This document shows, piece by piece, positions 26,696 through 29,663 of a DNA stretch of 64,000 nt (its first letter is position 1; the number at the start of each line of letters is the position of its first letter). Below the pieces are notes generated by a model, which was given only the letters and a program-made list of their open reading frames with translations, was not told where the DNA came from and searched no databases. This stretch comes from Humibacillus sp. DSM 29435 (GTDB lineage Bacteria; Actinomycetota; Actinomycetes; Actinomycetales; Dermatophilaceae), in NCBI RefSeq assembly GCF_001758225.1, contig NZ_MAST01000052.1, positions 124,001 through 188,000 of the forward strand, in the 5' to 3' direction. Position numbers and translations under genes: made by a program.

Positions 26696-27796
26696 GTGCA
26701 CGAGTACGTACTGGTTCTCATCGTGGCGGCTGTGGTCACCTACATCGTCACGCCGTTGGTGCGCAGCTTTGCCGTGGCGACCGGAGCCTTCACGGCGGTT
26801 CGCGAGCGCGACGTGCACACCACCCCCATCCCGCGCCTGGGGGGAGTGGGCATCTACCTCGGCTTCGTCGCCGCCGCGCTGGTGGCCCGCTCGCTGCCCT
26901 ACCTCGGCACGCTGTTCTCCACCAAGCAGATCCTCGGGGTGGTGGCGGCCGGCGGGGTCGTCTGCCTCGTCGGGGCCTTCGACGACATCCGCGAGCTCGA
27001 CTGGCTGACCAAGCTGGCCGGGCAGATGCTGGCTGCCGGGCTGATGGCCTACACCGGGGTGCAGCTGCTGTCGTTGCCGATCTTCGGCACCACGTTTCTC
27101 CCGACGCCGCTGCTCGTGCTGCTCACGGTGCTCGTAGTGATCGCCTCGACCAACGCCGTCAACTTCATCGACGGCCTTGACGGGCTCGCCGCCGGGGTCG
27201 TCGGCATCGCCGCGCTCGCTTTCTTCATCTACGGCTACATCGTCTCGCGATCGTTCGTGCCGGCGAACGTGTTCTCGACGGCGACCTTCATCTCGGCGGC
27301 GCTGGTCGGATGCTGCGCGGGGTTTCTGCCGCACAACTTCCACCCCGCCCGCCTGTTCATGGGTGACTCGGGGGCGCTGACGCTCGGGCTGTTGCTCTCG
27401 GCCGCGACGATCACGCTGACGGGCAACGTCAACCCCGGTTCTGACGTCAGCGCCAACCAGGTGACCGCCGCGTTCCTGCCCGTCATCGTGCCGTTGGCGG
27501 TGATGCTGCTGCCATTGGTCGACATGGCCCTGGCCGTGGTGCGTCGTACCCTCAAGGGGCAGAAACCGTGGCAGCCCGACGCCTTGCACCTGCACCACCG
27601 CATGCTGAAGTTCGGCCATACCCACCGGCGGGCGGTGCTCATCCTCTACCTGTGGGCGGCCATCGTGGCCCTGGGCTCGGTCTCGTTCGTGATCTGGGAC
27701 GGCTGGTGGCCGCTCGTGGTGGTGCTCGCTGCGGCGGTCGTCGGTGCCGGCCTGACCGTCCTGCTGCCGAGGTGGAGGGCCTCCGAACGCTTGTGA
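26696..27796 (+). CDS. wecA: undecaprenyl/decaprenyl-phosphate GlcNAc-1-phosphate transferase (WecA family)
   Basis: 366 residues with about ten or eleven membrane helices, a PNPT-family enzyme that starts polyprenyl-linked glycan assembly. The conserved acidic motifs are GAFDDIRELDWLTK (Mg-binding Asp pair), NAVNFIDGLDGLAAG, and FMGDSGALTLGLL. The cytosolic loop ends with HLHHRMLKFGHTHRRAV, the WecA-type histidine motif that separates it from MraY. In actinobacteria it is thought to start arabinogalactan or teichoic-acid linker synthesis. The GTG start lacks a good RBS. The stop codon lies inside the predicted atp operator. Confidence 0.9.
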   Translation: MHEYVLVLIVAAVVTYIVTPLVRSFAVATGAFTAVRERDVHTTPIPRLGGVGIYLGFVAAALVARSLPYLGTLFSTKQILGVVAAGGVVCLVGAFDDIRELDWLTKLAGQMLAAGLMAYTGVQLLSLPIFGTTFLPTPLLVLLTVLVVIASTNAVNFIDGLDGLAAGVVGIAALAFFIYGYIVSRSFVPANVFSTATFISAALVGCCAGFLPHNFHPARLFMGDSGALTLGLLLSAATITLTGNVNPGSDVSANQVTAAFLPVIVPLAVMLLPLVDMALAVVRRTLKGQKPWQPDALHLHHRMLKFGHTHRRAVLILYLWAAIVALGSVSFVIWDGWWPLVVVLAAAVVGAGLTVLLPRWRASERL

Positions 27797-27809
27797 TAGG
27801 ATTCACAAG
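27790..27809 (+). promoter_or_regulatory. CRP/GlxR-type operator overlapping the atp promoter
   Basis: CTTGTGA-N6-TCACAAG is a perfect 7-bp inverted repeat containing the CRP consensus TGTGA-N6-TCACA. The six central bases are TAGGAT, a good -10 hexamer (27797-27802). The site also covers the wecA stop codon. Binding here would block RNA polymerase. The consensus is established knowledge; occupancy is inference. Confidence 0.7.
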
Positions 27810-27917
27810 CACCTGAAGGGAGTCTGGGAACCGGAGTCCACCGGCAGCCGATCCTTTTGCACCGCAAGCACATCCAGCCCGAGCACAACGCCGACCGACG
27901 CAGCCAGGCAGGTTTTC

Positions 27918-28459: not shown

Positions 28460-28720
28460 ATGGCCGAGGCCACCGAACCGACACCGTCCCCTCGTCCCGA
28501 CGAGCCGTCGGAGGCAGAGAAGCTGCGGCGGTTCAACACCAGCGAGCAGGACTCCGCCTGGCGGGCCATCGCCTACCTGCTGAGCGGTCCGCTGATCTAC
28601 GGCGGCCTCGGAGCCCTCGCCGACCACTGGCTCGGAACGTCCTGGCTGGTGGGGGTGGGCATCGTCGGAGGCATGGCGTTGTCGCTCTACCTGATCTGGT
28701 TCCGGTACGGTACGCACTGA
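28460..28720 (+). CDS. AtpZ/AtpI family protein
   Basis: 86 residues. After a Pro/Glu-rich N-terminus, two helices follow: WRAIAYLLSGPLIYGGLGALADHWL and GVGIVGGMALSLYLIWFRYG (in outline), the AtpZ pattern. It is thought to act with AtpI in Mg2+/Ca2+ entry or c-ring assembly. It sits 14 nt after the previous gene and upstream of atpB. Confidence 0.75.
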   Translation: MAEATEPTPSPRPDEPSEAEKLRRFNTSEQDSAWRAIAYLLSGPLIYGGLGALADHWLGTSWLVGVGIVGGMALSLYLIWFRYGTH

Positions 28721-28868: not shown

Positions 28869-29663
28869 GTGAGCATCGTGGCCACTGCGGTCGGTGCCGT
28901 GAGCGCCGACTTCACCCCCCCGGGCGTGGAGGAGTTCTGGCAGCCGCTCTTCGGCACCGACGGGGCCTGGGCCATCACCCGGCCGATTCTGCTCAGCGTG
29001 CTCTCGGTCGCCCTGATCAGCTGGTGGCTGCTCGCCACCACGAAGAAGAAGGCCGTCGTGCCGAGCAAGGGCCAGATGGGCACCGAGGCGGTCTACGGCC
29101 TCGTGCGCAACGGGGTCGCGAAAGACCTGATCGGCAGCAAGGAGTTCATGCGGTTCGTACCGCTGCTCTTCACGATGTTCGTGCTGATCCTCACGAACAA
29201 CCTGTTCGGTGTCGTGCCGCCGATGAGCTACCCGACGATGGGGCGCATCGGCTTCCCGGTGGCGCTGGCCCTGATCGTCTGGATCGTCTTCCACGTCGTC
29301 GGCATGCGCAAGCACGGCTTCTTCGGCTACTGGGCCTCGCTCGTGCCGAGCGGTCTGCCCAAGGCCATGGTGCCGTTCATCTTCGTCCTCGAGCTGATCA
29401 CCGACCTGTTCACGCGGCCGGTCACCTTGGCCCTGCGACTCTTCGGCAACATGTTCGCCGGCCACATCCTGCTCGTGCTGTTCGTCACCGGTGGCTGGTA
29501 CATGCTAACCAACGGCGGCATCCTCGTGGTCGCCGGTGGCGTCACCTGGGTCTTCGCCATCATCATGTTCCTCTTCGAGATCCTCGTGGAGTTCCTCCAG
29601 GCCTACGTCTTCACGCTCCTGGCGGCTCTCTACATCGCCGGTGCGGTGGCCGACGAGCACTGA
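28869..29663 (+). CDS. atpB: ATP synthase F0 subunit a
   Basis: 264 residues with five or six membrane helices. It forms the proton half-channels with the c-ring. The essential arginine is in LALRLFGNMFAGH, and LEFLQAYVFTLLAALYI near the C-terminus is the second channel helix. The start has GAAGGAG a few nt upstream. The 148-nt gap before it has no clear terminator. Confidence 0.96.
   Translation: MSIVATAVGAVSADFTPPGVEEFWQPLFGTDGAWAITRPILLSVLSVALISWWLLATTKKKAVVPSKGQMGTEAVYGLVRNGVAKDLIGSKEFMRFVPLLFTMFVLILTNNLFGVVPPMSYPTMGRIGFPVALALIVWIVFHVVGMRKHGFFGYWASLVPSGLPKAMVPFIFVLELITDLFTRPVTLALRLFGNMFAGHILLVLFVTGGWYMLTNGGILVVAGGVTWVFAIIMFLFEILVEFLQAYVFTLLAALYIAGAVADEH

Follow-up and report, generated by a model that had tools for sequence, protein, structure and literature searches.

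Identity and setting of the palindrome

Which regulator recognizes the palindrome in front of the ATP synthase operon of Humibacillus sp. DSM 29435, and how does its site relate to the promoter of this operon? Within the window, i.e., the 64,000 nucleotides of contig sequence analyzed here, CTTGTGA-TAGGAT-TCACAAG (CTTGTGATAGGATTCACAAG) occupies positions 27790-27809, 5′ of the operon, confirming the perfect TGTGA-N6-TCACA palindrome that a first-pass annotation had described. All window genes described here lie on the forward strand. The upstream gene (26696-27796, PF00953) encodes a glycosyltransferase family 4 protein (WecA-like). Its TGA stop codon at 27794-27796 falls within the palindrome, as annotated before, but this arrangement is no conserved feature, as the stop takes that position in only 35 of 83 relatives. 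The operon starts with a gene for a Cg1360-family ATP-synthase-associated membrane protein (AtpI-like, NF053722; 27918-28445, start codon uncertain). It is followed by a small open reading frame of 86 amino acids (28460-28720) and by atpB, encoding ATP synthase subunit a (28869-29663, PF00119). The small reading frame has no NCBIfam or Pfam match; judged by its position, it might encode an AtpI/AtpZ-type assembly protein.

With zero mismatches, TGTGA-N6-TCACA occurs once in the window, and this copy is the only one in the 5,023,713-base genome, while a reversed control pattern gave no match genome-wide. When one mismatch was permitted, 28 genomic sites were found compared to 17 for the control, indicating that the weaker matches are mostly noise and that the perfect palindrome stands out. 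One of these one-mismatch sites is located 5′ of rex.

Conservation of the palindrome among relatives

A search in related genomes, already proposed when the site was first annotated, covered 92 atpB-upstream regions of the window's own family, Intrasporangiaceae (loci L020-L049, L081-L083 and L109-L168). The perfect TGTGA-N6-TCACA was present in 79 of them, whereas each of 29 permuted palindromes was found in 0 of the same 92 regions, placing the conservation far beyond chance. The longer form TTGTGA-N6-TCACAA was detected in 99 of 120 family genomes, mostly as one copy per genome (reversed control, 1 of 120), and nearly all family genomes listed carry one such match 5′ of atpB. Alignment of the family sites yielded the consensus gCTTGTGATAnnnTTCACAAGc, in which both operator arms are near-invariant and the outer T/A pair is kept in 100% of the sites, as in the Rex consensus. 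Beyond gCTTGTGATAnnnTTCACAAGc the conservation drops sharply, apart from a T at −19 and a G at −17. Across the sampled phylum, the operator 5′ of the ATP synthase operon persists in about 22 family-level groups, the window's own included, which extends the comparison beyond the single Streptomyces case in the literature covered.

The conserved motif matches the Rex operator

The motif conserved among relatives, TTGTGA(A/T)-N4-TTCACAA, fits the Rex operator consensus, reported for S. avermitilis as TTGTGAA-N4-TTCACAA (PMC5355995). The window site agrees with the latter at 13 of 14 specified positions; the single mismatch, T for A at position 7, is the first base of the −10 hexamer discussed below. 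Motif and conservation together delimit a putative Rex operator TTGTGATAGGATTCACAA at 27791-27808 on the forward strand, with C/G flanks extending it to 27790-27809. A Rex orthologue is encoded in the same genome (PF06971 and PF02629); it scores 331 bits against the NCBIfam Rex equivalog (cut-off 226), and all its PDB matches are Rex-type proteins. A Rex operator, TTGTGCATGCGTTCACAA, is found 5′ of this rex gene, between the −35-like hexamer TTGACT and the −10-like hexamer TAGCCT (L356:1380-1410), suggesting that rex is autoregulated. Taken with the distribution and promoter data below, we are highly confident in reading the palindrome as a Rex operator superimposed on the promoter of the ATP synthase operon, an assignment made by comparative sequence analysis.

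Site distribution tracks Rex rather than CRP

To relate the site to its candidate regulators, we compared its occurrence with that of Rex. Outside the family, 86 genomes of the phylum were assessed, and a site was scored when it had no more than two mismatches in the twelve positions and lay 600-1400 bases upstream of atpB. A site was present in 55 of 73 genomes with Rex and in 0 of 13 without Rex (p = 2e-7), and the reversed control pattern satisfied the same definition in 1 of 86. Among 102 good family genomes, the perfect site was present in 84 of 92 with Rex compared to 2 of 10 without (p = 2e-6). Since the genomes are related, both Fisher p values overstate independence and are indicative only. 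The family genomes lacking Rex as well as the site span four genera (g9, g14, g15 and g41), and the absences were confirmed when the full Rex protein served as query in another search.

The distribution of the site thus tracks Rex, with four exceptions. G046 and G099 retain the site although no Rex was found, as does G112, whose assembly exceeds the contamination limit; recent loss of Rex, a missed gene or another binding protein might account for the intact operator in these three genomes. Conversely, G011 and G089 (genus g12) possess Rex without the atp operator, which points to a rewired ATP synthase promoter.

Rex-less genomes also show which part of the site is lost. G013, G062, G090 (g14) and G041 still carry TGTGATAnnnT at a similar distance from atpB, while the right arm has gone: left arm and core read TGTGATAGTTT in G013 and G090, TGTGATAGCTT in G062 and TGTGATAACGT in G041, and TCACAA is replaced by CCAAAC (G013), GACCGT (G062), CGGCAT (G090) and GACTCC (G041). 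Bases shared with the promoter are retained and bases serving only the repressor are lost, so that the two roles are separable. After loss of Rex, it is exactly the promoter-dispensable half of the operator that decays.

These data bear on a reading in which Rex and CRP both bind, or compete for, the same 18 bp. The sequence meets both consensuses and both proteins are encoded in the genome; if true, such a double operator would let ATP synthase expression integrate NADH/NAD+ and cAMP at the −10 element itself. The right arm, however, decays in two genera that have CRP and lack Rex, so no selection for CRP is apparent, and we regard joint use of the site as improbable.

Slightly less probable still is the assignment originally made, according to which a cAMP receptor of the CRP/GlxR type represses the ATP synthase operon by covering the −10 element. 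It has a sound basis: the TGTGA-N6-TCACA core is the CRP consensus, also quoted for GlxR, and the 18 bp hold it perfectly; the genome encodes a GlxR/Rv3676-type CRP with the recognition helix RETVNKAL as well as two class III cyclases; and GlxR regulates the atp operon in C. glutamicum. Yet all 102 good family genomes encode CRP, whether or not they have the site. Being universal in the family, CRP does not account for the genomes missing the site, and it was rejected as the determinant of the site, whose occurrence follows Rex both inside and outside the family. The persistence of CRP in the genomes with a decayed right arm likewise argues against CRP as the selecting agent. Moreover, the outer T/A pair and the inner bases that the phylum conserves are of the Rex type, the genome has no other perfect CRP site, and the orthologous S. 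avermitilis site, bearing the same motif, was footprinted by Rex (PMC5355995). The C. glutamicum system, compared here by description, is similar in that a global regulator acts on the same operon (atpBEFHAGDC) through sites with a TGTGA-N6-TCACA core. It differs in that GlxR activates rather than represses, responds to cAMP rather than NADH, and resides in a genome that, used as a control, gave no Rex match. A CRP homologue as the regulator, and with it cAMP-responsive ATP synthase expression, is therefore not supported. By eye, the Rex and CRP consensus sequences are indistinguishable, and the Rex assignment replaces a plausible but wrong cAMP reading with control of an essential energy operon by NADH/NAD+.

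The operator overlaps a predicted promoter

The first-pass annotation had considered the six central bases of the palindrome a credible −10 element, and comparison of the family sites bears this out. The hexamer TAGGAT (27797-27802) conforms to TAnnnT, which occurs at the identical offset in 81 of 83 family sites, always facing atp, compared to at most two occurrences at any other offset. Because a TG lies one base before TAnnnT, the element qualifies as an extended −10 (TGTGATAGGAT, 27792-27802, forward strand) within the operator. A −35-like TGGAGG is situated 18 bp upstream of the −10 hexamer (27773-27778, forward strand); its first position is T in 89% and its third position G in 86% of the family, and given the 18 bp spacer, the two conserved positions outside the operator coincide with the first and third bases of a −35 element.

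Coding constraint from wecA was considered as the source of this conservation and rejected, as the stop position and the reading phase vary among relatives while the motif and the −35-like T and G do not: both bases are kept regardless of which of the three phases the upstream gene is read in, and also in the 23 cases in which the stretch is non-coding, where it drifts to TTG. A strict E. coli-type promoter scan found no promoter here, which is not surprising considering how poorly the −35 element matches the consensus. With the constant orientation of the core and a T and G that are independent of reading phase, it is well supported that the operator's left arm and core double as the extended −10 of the promoter, based on these sequence comparisons. 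The right arm TCACAA (27803-27808, forward strand) is not required by the promoter and is the part that has decayed in Rex-less relatives. The conserved placement of the operator over the −10 also supports the earlier proposal that RNA polymerase would be excluded by a protein bound there. A −10 further downstream, combined with class II activation by CRP, was rejected, since no conserved −10 was found 18-60 bp downstream of the site in the family.

The position of the hexamer varies in other families. In 13 of 43 sites, a TAnnnT at −4 overlaps the operator's left edge; Streptomyces-like genomes carry both the −4 and the internal hexamer, and in some distant families a TAGGAT-like hexamer follows immediately downstream of the site. 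The operator hence tends to touch the −10 element, though not always in the same manner, as would be expected of a repressor.

That the palindrome is no more than a promoter, or forms an RNA hairpin where the upstream gene ends, without operator function, is highly improbable. The −10 does lie inside it, and its two arms could pair if the RNA reads through, but the right arm is invariant without being needed by the promoter, and no terminator-like site was found. In distant families, changes accumulate in the left arm (TTGCGA, TCGTGA, TTGTGC) and not in the right; the compensating changes that RNA pairing would entail are missing, for which reason the hairpin was rejected.

Returning to the Rex operator, the following mechanism is proposed. 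The promoter would consist of TGGAGG, the 18 bp spacer and the extended −10, and TCACAA would serve only as the operator's right arm. At a low ratio of NADH to NAD+, a Rex dimer would occupy 27791-27808, hiding the −10 and thereby preventing promoter opening by RNA polymerase. A rise in NADH would release Rex and permit transcription of the operon from about 27808-27810. Predicted steps of this mechanism are the binding of the site by the organism's own Rex, the position of the transcription start and the steric exclusion.

Comparison with Rex control in Streptomyces

Rex control of ATP synthase in Streptomyces is established, and PMC7244524 also cites a RegPrecise regulon. Rex of S. avermitilis represses atpIBEFHAGDC and binds its promoter in vitro and in vivo, with a footprint at the atpI promoter that contains TTGTGATACGGTTCACGA (PMC5355995). 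Rex binds DNA at low NADH/NAD+ and leaves as NADH rises; in S. avermitilis, the NADH effect is demonstrated for the cydA1 promoter, and Rex binding for the atpI promoter. Of 11 Streptomyces-like genomes, 8 have exactly TTGTGATACGGTTCACGA upstream of atpB and the other three deviate from it by one or two bases; the sequence had turned up in these genomes independently, ahead of the comparison with the published footprint.

Both systems share the operon, the location 5′ of an AtpI-like gene, the TA...T core, the presence of Rex and the operator motif (TTGTGATAGGATTCACAA here, TTGTGATACGGTTCACGA in S. avermitilis). They differ in that the palindrome described here is perfect at all 12 outer positions and probably contains the −10 element, whereas the S. 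avermitilis operator lies on the −35 side: according to PMC5355995, it spans −50 to −22 with respect to the atpI start, which puts it over the −35 rather than the −10. This placement disagrees with a −10 inside the operator and counts against the proposed overlap. The start mapping described in the methods passage concerns rex and wblE only, so the atpI start of S. avermitilis may not be mapped. Other regulators also act on S. avermitilis atpI, as its expression falls under oxygen limitation with or without Rex (PMC5355995). The rex promoter of S. avermitilis carries the operator TTGTGCACGCGTTCACAA, and the window's genome likewise has TTGTGCATGCGTTCACAA before rex; compared to the atp site, the autoregulatory operator serves another target gene and is positioned in the spacer, not over the −10.

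The literature covered, which lacked the key Rex-regulon comparison, contained no description of the depth of conservation, the co-loss with Rex or the selective decay of one arm; we do not claim these as first observations.

Further conserved elements near Rex-type sites

A second conserved element, close to TGACCTGCGGAAACG, is found about 15-40 bases 3′ of the Rex-type site in the distant families f15, f17 and f50; loci with such an element upstream of atpB are L088, L093, L103, L105, L107, L173, L194 and L195. The Streptomyces-like genomes (L087-L100) have a near-invariant block, GGTAAAGACCTCATCAAATAGT, immediately 5′ of the Rex operator and a second palindrome-like sequence, TGTGTGAC...GCACAC, further 5′. 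Among the matches listed from a pattern scan with GCTTGTGA-N5-TTCACAAGC over named genomes (L229-L308), which include unrelated palindromes, are GCTTGTGA-N6-TCACAAGC palindromes in Verrucomicrobia, Gemmatimonadetes and Eremiobacterota, e.g., L237, L246 and L252.
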